DNA of 45,431 nucleotides. Source: Candidatus Bathyarchaeota archaeon. Lineage in GTDB: Archaea; Thermoproteota; Bathyarchaeia; Bathyarchaeales; Bathycorpusculaceae. A program made the position numbers and the translations under genes. Below are positions 33,437 through 44,381 of the stretch, in pieces. The DNA is taken from contig JAOZHU010000008.1 of assembly GCA_026014705.1 (NCBI GenBank), positions 81,833-127,263 of the forward strand, read 5' to 3'. Each line of letters begins with the position of its first letter. The first letter of the stretch is position 1. The notes under the pieces are model-generated. The model was not told the DNA's origin, made no database searches, and was given only the letters and a program-made list of their open reading frames with translations.

Positions 33437-34582
33437 TTGAAGCGTGTCCATATGTCTCCTTTAGGAGAAGACAGAGATGATGATAGAAAGGTGACCAAGC
33501 CCTCGTGTGACACATTCGAAGTGGGAATCGTTGGCGCGGGAGTCGCAGGTTCCACATGCGCCCGAGTTTTAGGAGAGGCGGGGGTTAAAGTAGCTATTTT
33601 CGATCATTCTCATCCTCGAGAAAAGCCATGCGGTGGCTTTATCGAAGATAGGGTGGTTGAGGAATTCAAAATTCCAGAGGCGTTGTTGGAAAATGAAGTG
33701 AAATGGAGTCTGAATGAGAGATTTAAACTGCGAACCCGTTTTCAATTTGAGCAGTCTCAGTTTTTGGTTTCAAGAAAAGATTTTGACAGCTACTTGCTCC
33801 AAGAAGCGTTGAAAAATAATAGTGTGGTACATTTAAACGAGAAAGTAGTTCAAGTAACCGCTGAAAAAGAAAAATGGATGTTAAGAACAAATAGAGGCAA
33901 ATGTGTAAAAGTTAGTCTTCTCATAGGCGCTGATGGTTGTCCATCACTTACAAGAAAGTATGTCTACAGACCCATTCCTCAGAGCTTTCTGACTATGACC
34001 GTGGGCTACGATTTGCCTTGTTCAAGCCAATATTTAGAAAGAAACTTTGCCAAAAACACCGTGGAAGTCTACTATTCACGCAAGTACGTAAAAAAAGGCG
34101 GGTTCATATGGATTTTCCCTAAAAGAACAAAAATAAACATTGGCATTGGAAGCAGAGAATCAGGATTTAATCTGAAACAGGCTTTGGATTCCTTCATCGC
34201 AGTGCATCCTGCAGGGGCAAGATTAAAAAATATAGAAGGACAATTTTTTGCCCATTTAATCCCCACCGTCTGGATGGCACAATTCTTTGACTTGCCTTGT
34301 TCAGGTAACAATTGGGCTTTAATCGGGGACGCTGCTGGGCATGTAAACCCCGTAGGTGGTCTAGGCATTTATTATGCTATGAAAGGAGGGATTCTGTGTG
34401 GCAAGGCTTTGTTGGATGGTGACATTCATCTCTTTGAAGACTATTGGCGAAAGGAATATGGTGATGAATTATATTACGCGGCAAGTGCAGTCTCAAAATT
34501 CTACAGCGCTTCTGGGTTCGCCTTATGGCTTCCATATGTCTTTAGAAATCTCTTGACAAAATCAAGGCACTCTCGTTATTGA
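33437..34582 (+). CDS. Geranylgeranyl reductase-family flavoprotein
   Basis: FAD-dependent enzymes of this family saturate the double bonds of isoprenoid chains, including archaeal membrane lipids. The 381-residue protein has the Rossmann motif GIVGAGVAGSTCARVL near residue 30, the family motif EKPCGGF near 59-65, and the C-terminal FAD motif LIGDAAGHVNPVGGLGI with AMKGG. TTG 33437 is supported by AAGG 6 nt upstream. It starts a plus-strand series with polyprenyl synthase, MFS and radical SAM genes. Base composition is visibly more AT-rich than flanking genes. The exact substrate is not settled by sequence. Confidence 0.87.
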   Translation: MKRVHMSPLGEDRDDDRKVTKPSCDTFEVGIVGAGVAGSTCARVLGEAGVKVAIFDHSHPREKPCGGFIEDRVVEEFKIPEALLENEVKWSLNERFKLRTRFQFEQSQFLVSRKDFDSYLLQEALKNNSVVHLNEKVVQVTAEKEKWMLRTNRGKCVKVSLLIGADGCPSLTRKYVYRPIPQSFLTMTVGYDLPCSSQYLERNFAKNTVEVYYSRKYVKKGGFIWIFPKRTKINIGIGSRESGFNLKQALDSFIAVHPAGARLKNIEGQFFAHLIPTVWMAQFFDLPCSGNNWALIGDAAGHVNPVGGLGIYYAMKGGILCGKALLDGDIHLFEDYWRKEYGDELYYAASAVSKFYSASGFALWLPYVFRNLLTKSRHSRY

Positions 34583-34674: not shown

Positions 34675-35661
34675 ATGACTCGAAAGTTGGGTAAAATCAT
34701 AGTTGCAGATCTCATTAAAAGAAGTGAAAAAGGGCTTAACCTGGCAAAGCAAATATTGCGAGCAGAGGAAATGGACCATCCAAAACTGCGCGAAGCACTC
34801 GAGCATTATTTTGCAAATTGGAACGAGTTTGTACATCCCGGTTTGCTCTCCTTAGCATGCGAGGCTGTGGAAGGTGACCCTGATGACGTTATAGCGGTAC
34901 AAGCAGCGATAGCTATGCTGACGGCAGCGTTTGACGTACATGACGACATCATTGACAAATCTAAAGAGAAAAACAAAATAGCAACGATATACGGCAAGTT
35001 TGGCGAGGGAATAGCGCTCCTGCTGGGTAATGCCTTCTTGATAGAAGGTCTCAAATTCTTCGCAGACTCTGTGATCGCCTTGTCAAAAGATAGGGAAAGG
35101 AGTACCCTTGAGATCCTCAGGAAATTATTGTTTGAGGTTGGCAACGCACACGCTCTGGAAATTGGCTTAAAAGAGAGAAAAAATATTACGCCGAGCGAGT
35201 ACATGAAAATTACTGAAATGAAGGCTGCAAGCATCGAAGCAGACATGCACTTCGGTGCGTTGTTTGGCGGAGGAAAAGACGCTGAGATTGCGGTTTTGTC
35301 AAGAATTGGGAGAATTCTCGGCATATTAGCCACACTGCGAGATGACCTTGTTGATGTTTTTGACATCGAAGAGCTTCGCCAAAGAATCTCGGTTCAAGAC
35401 TTGCCGATTCCGCTCCTCTTTGCAATGCAAGATCAAGAAGCTAAGGATAAACTCGTAGATATTCTCTCAAAACCAAAAATATCGAAAAGCGATGTAGCTA
35501 CGCTAGTTGACATCACTCTAACAGCGCCACCTGTAGTACATTTGAAGAATCAAATGCGGCTTCTCATAGAGGAAGGATCAAACCTAACAAACAGACTCCC
35601 AAAAAAGGAGTCTCGATGCAAGCTTCAAGCCATCCTGTCTTTTATGCTTGAAGACTTGTAG
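34675..35661 (+). CDS. Polyprenyl diphosphate synthase (GGPP/FPP synthase-like)
   Basis: Adds isopentenyl diphosphate units to allylic diphosphates, giving C15-C20 or longer chains for archaeal lipids. The 328-residue all-helical protein carries the first aspartate-rich motif DVHDDIID near residue 88 and the second LRDDLVDVFD near 222, both with DDxxD spacing. ATG 34675 lies about 28 nt after a TTTTTTAAA TATA-like sequence, so the message may be leaderless. It follows the geranylgeranyl reductase gene by 92 bp, which supports a lipid role. Chain length cannot be predicted reliably. Confidence 0.9.
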   Translation: MTRKLGKIIVADLIKRSEKGLNLAKQILRAEEMDHPKLREALEHYFANWNEFVHPGLLSLACEAVEGDPDDVIAVQAAIAMLTAAFDVHDDIIDKSKEKNKIATIYGKFGEGIALLLGNAFLIEGLKFFADSVIALSKDRERSTLEILRKLLFEVGNAHALEIGLKERKNITPSEYMKITEMKAASIEADMHFGALFGGGKDAEIAVLSRIGRILGILATLRDDLVDVFDIEELRQRISVQDLPIPLLFAMQDQEAKDKLVDILSKPKISKSDVATLVDITLTAPPVVHLKNQMRLLIEEGSNLTNRLPKKESRCKLQAILSFMLEDL

Positions 35662-35748
35662 TTTTATGGTCCTGCTCGAATAGGCACTTTTTTCACTCTT
35701 TTAGCCATTCTCCTCAGTCTCCAGTGGTATTAGTGTAGAACATATCTA

Positions 35749-35756: not shown

Positions 35757-35836
35757 TCTTTTTGTTGAACAGAAATACAGAAGCACAAGTAACAAGAGTT
35801 TTATTCTCAAAACTGTATTTATTAGTGAGTTACGGA

Positions 35837-37147
35837 ATGTTTCACGTAAGAACGCTTATACAGAAGACTGCATGGAGAGCAATAGCGCCCTCAATTCTTC
35901 TAGTGATTAACAGTTTTGTGTGGTACATATTTGCTTACGCTGTCTTTAGCACAATTGTAAATGGACTTGGAGCAGAAAGCATGAGGTTGTTCATTATATA
36001 TTATGTTAGTATTGCAGTTTCGGCAATTCTCGGCGCCAAGTTTCTCTCACGTGTGCGATCCAACTCTCTATATTTATGGACATTTATAGGCGCAATTGCC
36101 ACGTTGTTGTTGGCAGTGATTCCCAGTTATGGTCAGTTAACTAACGCATTAATCGCCCTTTTTTTAGGGGCTTCAATCGGAGTAGGCTTACCATCTTGTT
36201 TGAGCCATTTTGCAGATTCAACATCTATTGAAAACCGCGGCTTTGTGGGTGGACTGATCTGGAGTACCGTAGGCTTCACTGTTTTGATTTTTGCCTTCTT
36301 AATTAACATATTTGGACAATGGGAAATGATTATTACACTAATGGTATGGCGACTCCTCGGCGGTATCGGTTTTTTAGTTCTTAACAGGAAACACGTGAGA
36401 CCCACTGTACTAAAACCTCCCAGTTACTTGGAGATTATACGCAAGAGACAGATACTATTGTACTTGTTTCCATGGATTATGTTTTCAATAATAAATTTTG
36501 CAGAAGTACCAATATTAGAAAACGTTTTTGGATCAGAAGCGTTTACCTTTGGACAAATCGTGGAATGGGCTTTCATAGGGGTCTTCGCAATCGTAGGGGG
36601 CATTATTGCGGACATTGCAGGAAGAAAACGCGTAGTTATCGCGGGCTTTGCCATGCTAGGAATTGAATATGCTGCTATGAGCGCGCTTTTTAATTCGCCA
36701 GAATCTCTGTACCTATTTCTGACTCTTGACGGAATAACATGGGGATTGCTTTTTTCAGTCTTCTTCATGGCACTGTGGGGAGACCTCGGAGAAAACTATG
36801 AAAAAGAGAAATACTATGCTTTAGGGGGTCTTCCTTACCTTCTTTCGAATTTCTTGTACATACTAATCAAACCCTACGCTAGCGCCATTTCTGCATTAGC
36901 AGCTTTCTCCTTTGCAAGTTTCTTCCTGTTTTTAGCAGTCATTCCTCTGATGTATGCGCCTGAGACTTTGCCTGAGAAAGCAATTAAAGACAGAGACCTG
37001 AAAAGCTATACTGAAAAAGCCCTCGAGAAGGCAAAGAAGGAAGCCGCGAAAAGCCAGAAAAAGCAGTTTGGCAAAGCCGAAAAAGAAGAGCCTGAAGAAA
37101 CTCCCGAGGACGCGGAAGCTCGGAAGTTAGCGGAAAAATACTATTAA
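35837..37147 (+). CDS. Major facilitator superfamily transporter with charged C-terminal tail
   Basis: A 436-residue transporter with about 12 membrane helices in two bundles. A short loop with KFLSRVRS is of the usual inter-helix 2-3 type, and AGRKRVVIAG near the middle matches the equivalent loop in the second half. The substrate is unknown. The frame is open to TTG 35762, but the TATA box at 35749-35756 favours ATG 35837. The C-terminal 50 residues are not membrane-associated: a Lys/Glu-rich helical tail ending in AEKYY. A radical SAM gene begins 9 nt after the stop, indicating co-transcription. Confidence 0.82.
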   Translation: MFHVRTLIQKTAWRAIAPSILLVINSFVWYIFAYAVFSTIVNGLGAESMRLFIIYYVSIAVSAILGAKFLSRVRSNSLYLWTFIGAIATLLLAVIPSYGQLTNALIALFLGASIGVGLPSCLSHFADSTSIENRGFVGGLIWSTVGFTVLIFAFLINIFGQWEMIITLMVWRLLGGIGFLVLNRKHVRPTVLKPPSYLEIIRKRQILLYLFPWIMFSIINFAEVPILENVFGSEAFTFGQIVEWAFIGVFAIVGGIIADIAGRKRVVIAGFAMLGIEYAAMSALFNSPESLYLFLTLDGITWGLLFSVFFMALWGDLGENYEKEKYYALGGLPYLLSNFLYILIKPYASAISALAAFSFASFFLFLAVIPLMYAPETLPEKAIKDRDLKSYTEKALEKAKKEAAKSQKKQFGKAEKEEPEETPEDAEARKLAEKYY

Positions 37148-37156
37148 AGCAGCGTT

Positions 37157-38296
37157 GTGCACAAGTACAGTATGTTCTTCCACGTCATGTTGACTACCGA
37201 GTGCAATCTGCAATGCAAATACTGCTTTGGCGAGGCAGTGAACGACTTTGAAGAGGATTTCTCAGGATTAGATGTGGATTATTCACTGCCCAAGAAAGCC
37301 AGTTACGCGTGGAGCCAACTAGCCAAGTTCTGCAGCAAGGACGCTGACTGCGTTTTGACCTTTTACGGAGGCGAACCCTTGCTGTGCATAAACGAGATTA
37401 AGCAAATCATGGACTTGGCGAAGCCGAAGCAGTTCATGATTCAGACAAACGGGTTGCTGCTGGACAAACTGGAACCCGAATACGTTAACCGCTTCCACAC
37501 GATACTCGTCTCCATCGACGGCGACGAAGCTTTAACTGACTACTACCGCGGCAAAGGCACATTCCGCAAAGTCGTCAACAACCTGCGACTAATCACGCAG
37601 AACGGATTCCAAGGCGAGCTAATCGCGCGCATGACCGTGATGGAGCAAACCGACCTGTACAAGCAAGTCACGTGGCTGCTGGACAACACCGAATTCGCAT
37701 TTAGCAGCGTTCATTGGCAGTTAAACGCGGGATTCTGGGAAAAAGACTACGCCAGACGCGACTTCAAACGCTGGAGCGAAAACAGCTACATTCCCAGCCT
37801 TAAGCAGCTAGCGCAGTTCTGGGTTAACCAAATGCAAACAAAAAGCACAATGCTCAAGCTGTACCCGCTATTAGGCATCGCCCATTCACTTCTGCATAAA
37901 GAACCCAGCCTGCTCCGCTGCGGCAGCGGATGGATAAACTACACAATACAAACCGACGGCACCATCATTCCATGCCCCACCATGTGGGGAATGAAAAACT
38001 ACTACATAAGCCACATCCGCAATGCGCACCCGAAGAAACTAAAACAAATACTAATAAAAAACGAACCCTGCACAGACTGCGAGGTTTTCAGCATCTGCGG
38101 CGGACGCTGCTTATACGCGAATGTGACCAAGCGCTGGAGCAGCGAAGCTTACGCGTTGGTCTGCAACACTGTCAAAAGCTTAGTGGATGCTGTAGACTCT
38201 GAACTTCCAAGGATACGGCAGCTAATCAACAATGGCACGATGCGCTTAAGCGATTTTGATTTTGTGAAGTACAATGGCTGCGAAATAATCCCCTGA
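37157..38296 (+). CDS. Radical SAM/SPASM enzyme, putative peptide- or protein-modifying
   Basis: The 379-residue enzyme has the radical SAM cluster motif CNLQCKYC (C16, C20, C23) and GGEP at 71-74. The C-terminal SPASM domain is complete, with C255, C273, C305, C308, C314, C318 and C336 in the canonical spacing for auxiliary iron-sulfur clusters. The N-terminus (FFHVMLTTECNLQCKYC) resembles the archaeal putative peptide-modifying AF1577-type family. GTG 37157 starts 9 nt after the MFS transporter stop; ATG 37172 is an alternative. A hairpin terminator follows, so the unit is MFS-rSAM. No precursor peptide was found adjacent. The substrate is unknown. Confidence 0.87.
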   Translation: MHKYSMFFHVMLTTECNLQCKYCFGEAVNDFEEDFSGLDVDYSLPKKASYAWSQLAKFCSKDADCVLTFYGGEPLLCINEIKQIMDLAKPKQFMIQTNGLLLDKLEPEYVNRFHTILVSIDGDEALTDYYRGKGTFRKVVNNLRLITQNGFQGELIARMTVMEQTDLYKQVTWLLDNTEFAFSSVHWQLNAGFWEKDYARRDFKRWSENSYIPSLKQLAQFWVNQMQTKSTMLKLYPLLGIAHSLLHKEPSLLRCGSGWINYTIQTDGTIIPCPTMWGMKNYYISHIRNAHPKKLKQILIKNEPCTDCEVFSICGGRCLYANVTKRWSSEAYALVCNTVKSLVDAVDSELPRIRQLINNGTMRLSDFDFVKYNGCEIIP

Positions 38297-38310: not shown

Positions 38311-38330
38311 CAACGGTTTTCCGTTGTTTT
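38311..38330 (+). terminator. Hairpin plus T-run terminator after the radical SAM gene
   Basis: CAACGG and CCGTTG form a perfect 6-bp stem around a TTTT loop and are followed by TTTT. It lies 15 nt after the stop at 38296 and ends the MFS-rSAM unit. Confidence 0.6.
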
Positions 38331-38377: not shown

Positions 38378-39145
38378 ATGGACATTCTCGAAGTTAAAGA
38401 CTTAACCGTCAGCATTCAGGGCAAAGTCATTTTGAAAAACTTGAGTTTCACCCTGAAAAAAGGCGAAAGCCACATCCTCTTCGGACCTAACGGCTCTGGA
38501 AAGACAACGTTAATCGGCGCTTTACTGGGTCTTCCCAGCTACGAAATTACCTCTGGAAAAATATTCTTCATGGGACAAGACATCACCGCGAAGAGCACAG
38601 ACGAACGAGCAAAGCTCGGCATAGTTGCAAGTTTTCAAAGCCCGCCAGAAATCGCAGGAGTAAAACTGGCTGACCTATTGAAACTATGTTTGGGGAAGAA
38701 ACCTGAAGATAGCTTCAGTTCAGAAGAACAACAACTAATCGAAAGATTCAAACTAACCGCTTTCTTGGGCAGGGATATGAACGTGGGCTTCTCTGGAGGC
38801 GAAAGAAAACGCTCAGAAATACTTCAACTCATATTCCTGAAGGGGAAACTGCTGCTGCTTGATGAGCCAGACTCAGGTGTTGATGTTGAAAGCTTGAAAC
38901 TGCTCGCAAGCGAACTGCAACGCTACATAGAACGCACAGGAAGCGCGGCACTGCTGATAACCCATAAGGGCGACATAATGGACTACATCAAAGCAAAATA
39001 CGGCTGCGTGCTGCTCAACGGCAACTTCCACTGTTTCACCGACCCGCTGCGAATGTACGAAGACATAAAAAACTACGGATACGAAGAATGTGTTGCATGC
39101 AGACGAAGAAACACTGGAGGCTGGAATTTTGAGCAAAGAAAATGA
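38378..39145 (+). CDS. sufC: SufC-type Fe-S assembly ATPase
   Basis: Cytoplasmic ABC-type ATPase that powers iron-sulfur cluster assembly with SufB. Walker A GPNGSGKTT is at 36-44, the ABC signature reads FSGGERKRSEI near 138, and Walker B LLLLDEPDSGVD near 165 is the SufC-specific form. The length of 255 residues is normal. ATG 38378. The 3' end overlaps the SufB-like gene by 17 bp, giving a translationally coupled pair. No cysteine desulfurase is nearby, so this is a minimal two-gene SufCB (SmsCB-like) system as found in many archaea. Confidence 0.94.
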   Translation: MDILEVKDLTVSIQGKVILKNLSFTLKKGESHILFGPNGSGKTTLIGALLGLPSYEITSGKIFFMGQDITAKSTDERAKLGIVASFQSPPEIAGVKLADLLKLCLGKKPEDSFSSEEQQLIERFKLTAFLGRDMNVGFSGGERKRSEILQLIFLKGKLLLLDEPDSGVDVESLKLLASELQRYIERTGSAALLITHKGDIMDYIKAKYGCVLLNGNFHCFTDPLRMYEDIKNYGYEECVACRRRNTGGWNFEQRK

Positions 39146-40253
39146 ACTCACAAAATTGCCCCATAAAATCTTGGAGGAAGCGCAGAAAGTCGGAATAGAA
39201 CAAGACGAAAAAAACCGTTCAGCCACATTTTTCCACCTGAACCAAGACACGGTGCAAGCAAAGGTCAACGAGCTTTTCGAAGGAAAAATTGAGCTAATGG
39301 ACGTGAAAACAGCCCTCAAGCAAAATCCTCAACTCGAACATTACATGTGGCGGCTTGTTGACAGAGAAAAAGACGAATTCACCCGAAAAGTCGCGGCTGA
39401 CTACAGCGGAGGCTACTTCATTCGCATATTGCCAGGAGTTGAGATCGCGTTTCCGCTTCAGTCATGCCTCATGATAACAAAAAGAAACATAGAGCAAAGA
39501 GTCCACAACATCATAATCGCCGAGGAAGGCTCAAACTCGCACATAATCACCAGTTGCCTACAGCATTCTACAGTGGACAGCGCGGCGCACTTGGGCGTAT
39601 CCGAAATTTACGTGAAGAAAGGCGCTGCGTTGAATTTCACGATGATTCACCAGTGGAGCGAGAACACTCTGGTTCGTCCGAGAACAGGCATCGAAATCGG
39701 AGACAACGCCTCTTTTGTCTCGAACTATATCTGCATGCGACCTGTTAGAGACATGCAAATGTACCCAGTGGCCTACTGCAACGGCGCCGATTCAAGAGTA
39801 AGCTTCAACAGCATACTTTACGGACATAAGCATTCGCAGTTGGATATTGGCTCAAAGGCGGTTCTGAATGGGAAAGGCAGCAAGGCAGAGATGGTCAGCC
39901 GTGCAATTTCACGTGAAGGTTCAAGGATAATAATTCGAGGTCTAATAGAAGGCAACAGTTCCGACTGCAAAGGGCATCTGGAATGCCGCGGCTTGCTTAT
40001 GGATGACGATTCTTTCATGCAGTCAATACCTGAACTGACAGCGCGGAAAAAAGGCGTCGAAATAACGCATGAAGCAGCGGTTGGCAAAATTTCAGAGAAA
40101 GAAGTGGCATACCTGATGACGCGGAAACTTTCCCGTGACCAAGCCACATCACTGATTATTCGCGGCTTCATGGACGTTAGCATTCTCGGTTTGCCAGACG
40201 CCCTAAGCGCAGAAACCAAAAAGATAATCGACGCCTCAACCGAAGCAACATGA
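39129..40253 (+). CDS. sufB: SufB/SufD-type Fe-S cluster scaffold
   Basis: Scaffold partner of SufC; clusters form on the beta-helix core before transfer to apoproteins. The 374-residue protein has the SufBD core with the IIAEEGSNSHI strand, RPVRDMQM, and GHLECRGLL near the C-terminus, whose Cys aligns in context with the scaffold cysteine. The start is TTG 39129, chosen because GGAGG lies 8 nt upstream and it overlaps sufC by 17 bp; the frame is open from 39090, but there is no better site there. One SufB-like protein replaces the separate bacterial SufB and SufD. Confidence 0.9.
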   Translation: MSKENELTKLPHKILEEAQKVGIEQDEKNRSATFFHLNQDTVQAKVNELFEGKIELMDVKTALKQNPQLEHYMWRLVDREKDEFTRKVAADYSGGYFIRILPGVEIAFPLQSCLMITKRNIEQRVHNIIIAEEGSNSHIITSCLQHSTVDSAAHLGVSEIYVKKGAALNFTMIHQWSENTLVRPRTGIEIGDNASFVSNYICMRPVRDMQMYPVAYCNGADSRVSFNSILYGHKHSQLDIGSKAVLNGKGSKAEMVSRAISREGSRIIIRGLIEGNSSDCKGHLECRGLLMDDDSFMQSIPELTARKKGVEITHEAAVGKISEKEVAYLMTRKLSRDQATSLIIRGFMDVSILGLPDALSAETKKIIDASTEAT

Positions 40254-41642: not shown

Positions 41643-44381
41643 TCAGGGAGTTTTTGATGGTGTGGTTTTTATAGTCCATAAGGCAGATTCGTTGAAAATC
41701 CATTTTTCTTCCCCTGTCCCTACTGGTTTGGGGTCTGTTGGAATTGTTATAGTGACGGTGGTTCCCTTCTTGGGCTTGCTTGTCAATGAGATTCTGCCGC
41801 CGTGCGCTTCGACTATGCGTTTGCAGATGGGCAAACCGAAGCCCATTCCTTTGGCTTTCGTTGTAAAGAGCGGGAAGCCCAACTTTAGTTTGCTTAATGT
41901 TTCTTCTGTCATGCCTGTTCCGGTGTCTGTGAAAACGAATTTCACGTTGTCTCCTTCCACATTGCTCTCTATGGTCACGGTTCCTGTTTTTTGGATGGCG
42001 TCAATTGCGTTAGTAATGATGTTGACGAAGACTTTGCGCATTTTGTCTGTATCAGCTTTGATGTTAGGGTTGTTTTCAGTGGCATCTATGATTTGGATTC
42101 TCTGTGGAATTTCGATAAGAGCCAAGGCTTTTTGGAGCAGTTGTTTTGGGGTGGTCTCGCCGAGTTCCAAGGTTGGCTTGCTTGAATATTCCAGTAAGTC
42201 GTTTACTATTTTGTTAGAGTGGTCGATTGCTTTTTCGATAGTTTCCAGCATTTGTTTTCCTTTCTCGCCTATTTCTGTGCCATGTTTAGTTTTCAGGTAA
42301 TATGTGGCGCCTTTGATTCCTGTTAACGGATTGCGCAGGTCGTGCCCAACCATTCCGGCGAGTTCGCCGATGGCAGCAAGTTTCTCAGCTTTTAGCAACT
42401 TGGCTTGAGTCTGCTTCAGTTGTTCTGTTCGTTCTTCAACTAGTTGCTCCAGTTTTTCAGAGTATTTGGCAAGTTCGTTTTGCATGCGTTTCTTTTCGGT
42501 TATGTCCACTGCCAGCTCTAATGCTGCCAGAACATTTCCATCTTTGTCCTTGATTGGTGTGACTATTAGTTCAATCCAGAATTGGTTGCCCTTGTCATTT
42601 TTGTTTGTGTATTCGTGTATGTCCATTGGTACGCCATTTTCGAAAACTTTTTTGACACCGCAATCAGGGCACACCTGAGTGAGCTTGTTAAAAGTTGAAT
42701 AGCACAACTTGTTTTCCACTCTGCCGCCGTGAGTTTGATTCAGGAGTTTGTTCGCCCATAATATGCGATAGTCTTTGCTGATAATCGCCAGTCCAGCACC
42801 AATGTTTTCCGTGATGGTTTCAAGTTTGTCGCGTTCCAGTCTAAGTTCATGCTCGATTTTCTTTTGCTCTGTAATGTCTCGTGTAATAAGATGGAAAAAC
42901 TTTTTTCCTGCCAATTCGATTACTTGCACCGTGTTTATGACATCTCTGATTTCCCCAGTCTTGGTGCGATGCTTGGTTTCGAACTCGTCTTTTCCTTCCC
43001 GCAGTATTTTCTTCATGCGTGCCTTTGTTTCCTCGGGAGTTTCGAGGACTTCATAGTCTGATACCGTCAGTTTTTCGAACTCCTCTCGTGTATAGCCAAG
43101 TTGGCGGTGTGCCTCTTCGTTGAACTCAATTGCCCTCGCTGTTTCCTGTTCAATTATTAAAATGCCTACTGGTGCTTGATTAAAGAGGGTGCGGTAGCGT
43201 TTTTCTCCCTCTAGCAGCTTTGTCTCCATCTGTTTGCGGTCAGTTATGTCTATTGACAGCACGAAAATGCCTTCTGGCGCTGGATGAATGCGCAACTCAA
43301 ACCAGCTTTTTCGTCCGTCAGGGTATGTAAATTCGTTTTCCATAAGCTTTGAGACGCGCTTTTGCATGCACTGTTGAAGTTCCGCGAACATTTTCGATTT
43401 TTCGATGCCGGGATAAACCTCCATCATAGTTTTGCCCAACAATTCTTCTTTTGCTAAGTGTGCATGTTTTGCGGCGGAGTCATTGACGTAAAGATATCGC
43501 CAATCGTGGCTAATTATCTGGCAACCTTCTATCATGTTGTCTAGTGTTTCTCGGAAATGTTTCTCTGTTTCTCGGATTTTTTCTTCGATCTGTTTGCGTT
43601 CCGTGATGTCCTTGACAAAAACAGACAACCCTGCTTTTGTTGGGTACACGTTGATTTCAAAGATGTACTCTTTGTCTCTAATCTTGTATTTGTTCACAAA
43701 GTTCTTTGGGCGTTTTGTTCTGATTACGTCTCGATAGATTTTTTCAAATTCTGTTCCTTCAGCATCGCGGAAAACCTCGGTCATGGATTTTCCAATTGCG
43801 TCTTTCGCGCGTATTCCTCTGAGTTTTTCAGACGCTTTATTCCAGTAAGTGTATCGCAAGTTTTTGTCCATTGCGAAGAAGACATCACTGATGCTTTCTG
43901 TAAGCTCTTTGCATCTTTCTTCACTTTCTTTGATTTCTTTGACCTTTTCGCTTACGAGAGTTTCCATCTTTTCAGAGTATTCCTTAATCTTTGCTAGATT
44001 TTTCTTTATCCGCGTGATGTCGCGTATTATCACGAGATCAGCTGGGTTCCCGGCGTAACTGATTTTTTTGGCTTTCACCTCAGCATATCCGATTTCACCA
44101 TTCTTGGCTGTGAACGTGATTTCGTAGGGTGAAACAGGCAAGCCTTGCATTCTTCTATTCAGATTTTCAAGAAGCGCCTTTTTGCTTTCTGCTGTTAGGA
44201 TGCGCAACTCCGAAAATATTTTGCCAATAACTTCGCTACTACTTAAGCCTGTTACATCCTCGAAGGCGTCATTAACAAGCAGTACGCGTCCTTTCTCGTT
44301 GGCGATAACCACTGGGTCAACAATAAAGTTGAGGAGTGTTAAGAAGTTGTTTTCGCCTTCTTCACGGGGCACGTTTTGCAT
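41643..44381 (-). CDS. Multi-PAS sensor histidine kinase
   Basis: A 912-residue soluble kinase with no membrane helix. Five PAS domains lie at about 12-125, 155-262, 273-382, 393-505 and 517-628, the first two separated by a coiled coil (about 125-155). A second coiled coil precedes the HisKA dimerisation domain (665-735) with phospho-acceptor His680 in GHDLRNP. The ATP-binding domain has N box NIITNAIDAI (787-796), G1 DTGTGM and G2 GMGFGL. PAS5 contains CPDCG plus C560. The last 28 residues are not part of the fold. AGAGGA precedes ATG 44381. No response regulator is nearby. Confidence 0.94.
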   Translation of the reverse strand: MQNVPREEGENNFLTLLNFIVDPVVIANEKGRVLLVNDAFEDVTGLSSSEVIGKIFSELRILTAESKKALLENLNRRMQGLPVSPYEITFTAKNGEIGYAEVKAKKISYAGNPADLVIIRDITRIKKNLAKIKEYSEKMETLVSEKVKEIKESEERCKELTESISDVFFAMDKNLRYTYWNKASEKLRGIRAKDAIGKSMTEVFRDAEGTEFEKIYRDVIRTKRPKNFVNKYKIRDKEYIFEINVYPTKAGLSVFVKDITERKQIEEKIRETEKHFRETLDNMIEGCQIISHDWRYLYVNDSAAKHAHLAKEELLGKTMMEVYPGIEKSKMFAELQQCMQKRVSKLMENEFTYPDGRKSWFELRIHPAPEGIFVLSIDITDRKQMETKLLEGEKRYRTLFNQAPVGILIIEQETARAIEFNEEAHRQLGYTREEFEKLTVSDYEVLETPEETKARMKKILREGKDEFETKHRTKTGEIRDVINTVQVIELAGKKFFHLITRDITEQKKIEHELRLERDKLETITENIGAGLAIISKDYRILWANKLLNQTHGGRVENKLCYSTFNKLTQVCPDCGVKKVFENGVPMDIHEYTNKNDKGNQFWIELIVTPIKDKDGNVLAALELAVDITEKKRMQNELAKYSEKLEQLVEERTEQLKQTQAKLLKAEKLAAIGELAGMVGHDLRNPLTGIKGATYYLKTKHGTEIGEKGKQMLETIEKAIDHSNKIVNDLLEYSSKPTLELGETTPKQLLQKALALIEIPQRIQIIDATENNPNIKADTDKMRKVFVNIITNAIDAIQKTGTVTIESNVEGDNVKFVFTDTGTGMTEETLSKLKLGFPLFTTKAKGMGFGLPICKRIVEAHGGRISLTSKPKKGTTVTITIPTDPKPVGTGEEKWIFNESALWTIKTTPSKTP

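Follow-up and report, generated by a model that had tools for sequence, protein, structure and literature searches.

Gene run and its conservation

The window analyzed here, a stretch of 45,431 nucleotides from Candidatus Bathyarchaeota archaeon, carries on its plus strand a gene for a geranylgeranyl-reductase-family protein (GGR, 33437..34582), a trans-isoprenyl-diphosphate-synthase-like protein of 328 aa (PPS, 34675..35661), an MFS transporter of 436 aa (MFS, 35837..37147) and a radical SAM/SPASM protein (rSAM, 37157..38296). A micro-gene of 14 codons lies between PPS and MFS on the minus strand (35664..35708). The original prediction had described MFS and rSAM as an isolated two-gene unit. 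Both are indeed real open reading frames on the same strand; the isolation does not hold, since PPS immediately precedes MFS and is conserved together with MFS and rSAM. GGR, too, belongs to the run in the window and in a minority of relatives (six loci).

MFS was identified by PF07690 (45.4 bits), homologue alignment and conservation, and probably starts at ATG 35837 rather than at TTG 35762. Its C-terminal stretch, FLFLAV-PL-YAPETLPEK--KERELK-Y-EKA (window 36900-37147), is far better conserved than the remaining protein. The distance from MFS to rSAM, predicted as 9 nt, is correct if rSAM begins at GTG 37157. The homologues, instead, begin at the Met of MFFH, which corresponds to ATG 37172 in the window and suggests this codon as the start, with a gap of 24 nt; in relatives the gap is mostly 3-34 nt and reaches up to about 75. 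The predicted hairpin terminator after rSAM has its counterpart in a hairpin followed by a T-run (38311..38326, plus strand, z = -3.24), located in a 4-kb region where terminator-like sites are no more frequent than in shuffles.

Further downstream, 82 nt past rSAM, a sufC-sufB-like pair (38378-40253, plus strand) resembles a minimal SUF system. The sufC-like gene reaches 208.8 bits with TIGR01978, slightly below the cut-off, and its partner has the SufB core domain. We rejected the pair as a member of the unit, as it is found immediately 3' of rSAM in the window only; in L057 a comparable pair is separated from rSAM by a few genes. The window also encodes a large multi-PAS histidine kinase (41643-44381, minus strand).

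The genomes compared are mostly MAGs, some of them incomplete, and all the statistical tests ignore shared ancestry. Among 36 loci of the same Bathyarchaeia family (the window plus L039-L073), MFS lies directly 5' of rSAM in 33 (in 2 of them with an intervening GGR gene), contig ends accounting for two of the three exceptions, and PPS precedes MFS and rSAM in 32/36. PPS-MFS adjacency was found, among 101 related genomes, also where rSAM is missing or located elsewhere, and the pair is present in f30, from another class of the phylum. The co-presence of rSAM and MFS is pronounced within the family (34/2/5/20, Fisher p = 1.5e-9, uncorrected for relatedness), while outside the family the co-occurrence of rSAM with PPS-MFS is not above chance (p = 1, relatedness ignored). 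Moreover, when 129 rSAMs were placed in a FastTree tree, the 48 copies linked to MFS all fell within one 51-row branch with a support of 100. Read most simply, this means that the PPS-MFS pairing came first and that rSAM joined it once in this Bathyarchaeia family.

No dedicated protease, recognition domain or immunity gene is conserved at the loci. In genus g27 the PPS-MFS gap is devoid of the micro-gene, and the rSAM frame of one genome (G043, L121) is short (169 aa); the system may possibly be decaying there.

The micro-gene and its control region

The micro-gene begins with an ATG preceded by an SD-like GAGGAG and lies on the opposite strand from PPS, 2 nt past the PPS stop. It encodes the peptide MAKRVKKVPIRAGP and was recognized from its translation, its conserved family and the purifying selection acting on it. 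The original prediction had seen no precursor ORF next to the enzyme and transporter; this conserved minus-strand ORF overturns that statement, with the peptide as a candidate precursor or effector. The conserved, short, precursor-like gene linked to enzymes by which a RiPP locus is recognized is found here in the PPS-MFS gap.

The peptides of the family have 10-22 residues, with a Lys/Arg-rich start, usually a P-x-R motif and then 2-10 residues. Relatives include MAKRAAKVKKVPVRIAP (L284), MNQVKKKDVPVRVGP (L064), MKKPIRPIRGVWW (L067), MAKKRKKNVPVRWGSGWFTV (L058) and MKAKKKRAKKVKPMRIFFW (L101). From a different class, L268 encodes MKKYNPTPIRLWAPLP, and that class holds the micro-gene also in L261 and L273; family f49 has it in L266 and L269, two loci that, like L283, have the peptide gene and MFS without an adjacent PPS. 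By a curated count, for which the best-supported start was chosen by score and by eye as in all our peptide lists, the micro-gene occurs in 52 of 60 PPS-MFS gaps. The eight gaps lacking it all belong to genera g27 and g13 and are mostly second copies. In g27, the peptides MKKKRLPVRVGP and MEKKKVPVRIAP (L092, L096) are encoded 3' of PadR and some 1.9 kb away from PPS. We found no description of this micro-gene family in the open-access literature searched.

A micro-ORF that ends within a few nucleotides of the PPS stop, and whose Lys codons mirror T-rich sequence, might be regulatory DNA or RNA, or the PPS terminator read backwards, with T-runs appearing as Lys codons. Several observations largely refute this explanation, to which we give a very small probability. 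The peptide pattern, searched as a regular expression, occurs antisense in 37/60 PPS-MFS gaps and in the sense direction in 1/60; mononucleotide-shuffled gaps matched in 1 of 1200 cases, and elsewhere we counted 36 matches in 1.8 Mb of strand (0.02 per kb). Because the expression was drawn from the same data, the sense-strand and shuffle controls outweigh the raw rate. Codon use points to translation as well: the conserved Pro codons include all four CCN, Arg is written 29 times as AGR and 29 times as CGN, all three stops are used, and AAG exceeds AAA among the Lys codons (117 vs 71). In ten close pairs, pooled, pN (0.125) is well below pS (0.41), with a pN/pS of about 0.3. The same type of peptide is encoded away from PPS in L092 and L096, hence the micro-gene is not a by-product of PPS antisense, and an Rfam search gave no match at E 0.1. 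Codon use and substitution pattern show that these micro-genes code for proteins and form a family subject to purifying selection.

Selection appears uneven along the peptide, with a pN of 0.071 in the leader up to P-x-R and 0.217 in the tail of the close pairs. Trp, Phe, Tyr and Cys are all absent from the window peptide, so that it cannot undergo Trp prenylation, aromatic cyclophane formation or Cys-thioether chemistry. Across the family, Trp is present in 60/77 peptides and Cys in 2/77. Aromatics are absent from 7 of 46 rSAM-linked peptides, and are lacking only among these (p = 0.04, a weak value not corrected for relatedness). The window peptide ends in IRAGP, letters with which the SecM arrest sequence also ends; the relatives do not have exactly this ending.

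A second PPS-MFS arrangement was observed in L110 and L111, where PPS is reversed and a gene for a trypsin-like protease (PF00089) lies in between; the layout of L275-L277 is similar. Trypsin cleaves after Arg or Lys, and cleavage after P-x-R would fit the presence of this protease in L110 and L111.

The intergenic region carries an operator-like element, TGTTCTACACTAATACC, upstream of the micro-gene (35726..35742, minus strand), with a TATA-like GTTATATG upstream of it, and a matching element, TGTTGAACAGAAATACA, in the opposite direction upstream of MFS (35763..35779, plus strand). Their shared pattern, TGTNNNACANNNWTACM, has only these 2 matches in the whole window, with 0.06 expected; across the fetched loci, 54 of its 84 matches fall within PPS-MFS gaps, with 0.74 expected. 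Most of the TATA-like hexamers are located 40-60 nt 5' of where the peptide begins. A sigma-70 promoter scan of the region, with a model unsuited to archaea, showed no enrichment. On the far side of the micro-gene, a terminator-like hairpin (35593..35613, minus strand) is found 51 nt beyond its stop codon, on the antisense strand of PPS; the region is not enriched over shuffles and this hairpin may be due to chance.

In many relatives PPS is preceded by a PadR gene (PF03551), and in several families MFS is followed by a ParA-like ATPase together with an HTH protein; the regulator may be, or include, PadR, the ParA-like ATPase or the HTH protein. In several families and classes, MFS is in tail-to-tail orientation with a ParA/MinD-like ATPase and an HTH protein (L107 9368-10545, L269 6021-7141 and others).

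The isoprenoid and radical SAM enzymes

PPS matches PF00348 with 85.6 bits against a cut-off of 27, and is conserved 5' of MFS. Its predicted structure (pLDDT 92) is nearest to ordinary GGPP synthases, with 1wy0, the GGPP synthase of P. horikoshii, as PDB match (TM 0.83). The best score among the trans-IDS equivalog models was 100.2 bits, which does not reach the cut-off of 468. Almost every genome has another, weaker synthase-like match, as expected for a housekeeping synthase. Canonical IDS motifs include an Arg pair after the FARM and a GK region. In 99 PPS sequences the FARM is intact (HDDIID in the window; Asp in 98-99/99), the Arg pair is not conserved, and R and E-x-L-P are found in the GK region. 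The SARM region is altered: it is acidic, often with Glu or Asn, and takes the form DDLVD in the window. We did not find, among these 99 sequences, a conserved Gln upstream of the SARM. GGR is assigned by TIGR02032 (185.1 bits, cut-off 158.8).

Trans-IDS-like enzymes that prenylate ribosomal peptides have been described in Bacillota (PMC13290415, PMC10853753). The Trp prenyltransferases ComQ, PalQ and Ord1 share the fold and keep the FARM, while their SARM region serves the acceptor and is preceded by a Gln (PMC13290415, PMC10853753); a Gln immediately upstream of the SARM is a feature of Trp prenyltransferases (PMC13290415). We therefore rejected PPS as a member of ComQ, given that it lacks this Gln and that the window peptide offers no acceptor Trp. 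PPS may transfer an isoprenoid to another site, working similarly to ComQ, or it may be a synthase.

The original prediction had likened the N-terminus of rSAM to an archaeal AF1577-type family. This was right in kind, the model matched being NCBIfam TIGR04084 (rSAM_AF0577), over the full length and with 306.8 bits against a curated cut-off of 225; the model names no function. Homologue alignment agrees with this assignment: C16, C20 and C23 of the core (CxxxCxxC) are invariant in 17 homologues, and so are the seven SPASM cysteines (C255, C273, C305, C308, C314, C318 and C336), all of which had been predicted. The SPASM model TIGR04085 gives 41.5 bits (cut-off 27). PapB is the second-best NCBIfam match, and we rejected rSAM as a PapB ranthipeptide maturase as it stays below the NF047865 cut-off (111.6 vs 340 bits). 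Likewise, an anaerobic sulfatase maturase was rejected (TIGR03942, 66.5 bits vs a cut-off of 349.45). The two outcomes that had been named as contrary to the original prediction, an unconserved pairing and a sulfatase-maturase enzyme, thus did not occur, and the proposed comparison of neighborhoods yielded, within the same family, both a conserved MFS partner and a conserved short ORF.

The AlphaFold model of rSAM (pLDDT 86) has among its closest solved folds the SPASM peptide modifiers anSMEcpe (with peptide), ChlB, CteB, SkfB and SuiB. The nearest named homologues belong to Candidatus Bathyarchaeota MAGs, and TIGR04084 as a whole is found in methanogens, Asgard archaea, Thermoproteota and others. 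The C-terminus EIIP (window 38270-38296) is almost invariant in TIGR04084, even at about 35% identity. Among its neighbors in other archaea no partner gene is conserved across lineages, so that the family is mostly partnerless. As for conserved small ORFs near TIGR04084 genes, we found only the PPS-MFS micro-gene; the remaining hits came from strains that are nearly identical, or were ordinary small genes or artefacts of the reading frame.

These data bear on whether rSAM belongs to the system at all. It might be an archaeal enzyme that acts independently on a target outside the locus and is merely co-transcribed with PPS-MFS, which would be compatible with the other readings. The occurrence of TIGR04084 in many archaea with no common neighbor, the lack of association with PPS-MFS outside the family and the persistence of PPS, MFS and peptide without rSAM would all agree with such independence. 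We nonetheless regard it as improbable, as within the family the linkage extends to 33/36 loci, the presence of rSAM and MFS is strongly correlated (p = 1.5e-9) and the linked copies form one clade.

A possible peptide pathway and known systems

We tentatively favor a model, plausible in our view though short of probable, in which the locus is a conserved archaeal ribosomal-peptide pathway with PPS and MFS export, to which rSAM was added in this family. In this model, the divergent micro-gene would yield a basic peptide of 10-22 residues; PPS, with its IDS fold, intact donor-binding motif and altered acceptor-side motifs, would supply or attach an isoprenoid; and MFS would export the product. 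The TIGR04084 enzyme, recruited once behind MFS in this Bathyarchaeia family, would modify it further, and one regulator would probably act on the paired operators before the micro-gene and MFS. We infer that the peptide may be the substrate of PPS and rSAM and may be exported for signalling or antagonism. The peptide-product pathway of the original prediction was a reasonable guess, which the conserved peptide gene strengthens and which the mostly partnerless TIGR04084 family and the missing association outside this family weaken. A broader proposal is that the loci represent a new class of lipidated ribosomal peptides in archaea, serving as signals or antibiotics, with 10-22 residue precursors (a conserved basic part up to P-x-R and a tail that evolves faster), a trans-IDS-like enzyme, a dedicated MFS exporter and, in one family, rSAM; it seems unlikely to us at present.

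The strongest objection to a peptide pathway is the absence of Trp, Tyr, Phe and Cys from the window peptide. The Gln missing upstream of the SARM, the proximity of the PPS model to GGPP synthases, the loci without PPS, the mostly partnerless TIGR04084 and the lack of a conserved recognition domain, dedicated protease or immunity gene also count against it. The micro-peptide could instead act unmodified, regulating or partnering MFS, a regulator or the ribosome. PPS, GGR and rSAM would then make or tailor an isoprenoid small molecule or lipid moved by MFS. This explanation, which we consider possible if somewhat doubtful, would account for PPS and GGR being isoprenoid enzymes, for the peptide remaining with MFS where PPS is absent, for a window peptide lacking the side chains on which Trp or Cys chemistry usually acts, for an ending that recalls the SecM arrest sequence, and for PadR and ParA-HTH genes as common neighbors. 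Between close relatives, however, the basic N-terminus with P-x-R changes less than the tail, a pattern closer to a leader-core split than to a fixed regulator. Furthermore, as the micro-gene is transcribed away from MFS and towards PPS, neither gene can be under classical leader control in cis.

If the peptide is modified and exported, the locus would represent a peptide pathway in uncultured archaea whose precursors are small enough for gene callers to miss. Even without modification or export, a conserved family of 10-22 codons, spread over several families and at least two classes and associated with an operator-like element and with an MFS, offers a concrete target. It also provides a defined context in which to test what an orphan radical SAM family of archaea does.

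Among known systems, rSAM is a regular member of the TIGR04084 family, being full-length, over the cut-off, equipped with all motif cysteines and part of a group widespread in archaea, whereas its context behind PPS-MFS and a micro-peptide gene is limited to one clade. With PapB and the SPASM maturases anSME, CteB, ChlB and SuiB it shares the radical SAM core and the SPASM fold; it differs from PapB in its score, far under the PapB cut-off, and in a window peptide without Cys, and the solved SPASM relatives are only about 14-21% identical to it over structural alignments. PPS has the fold and FARM of the P. horikoshii GGPP synthase (1wy0), its best match in sequence and structure, but it is an extra copy beside another synthase-like gene in almost every genome, and its Arg pair after the FARM and its GK region are replaced. 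Finally, the locus resembles ComQ-ComX and PalQ-PalX in placing an IDS-fold enzyme with an intact FARM beside a short peptide gene, and in the Trp-containing tails of many of the relatives' peptides. It departs from them in lacking the Gln before the SARM and a Trp in the window peptide, in a peptide of only 10-22 aa, in the presence of an MFS and in being archaeal.
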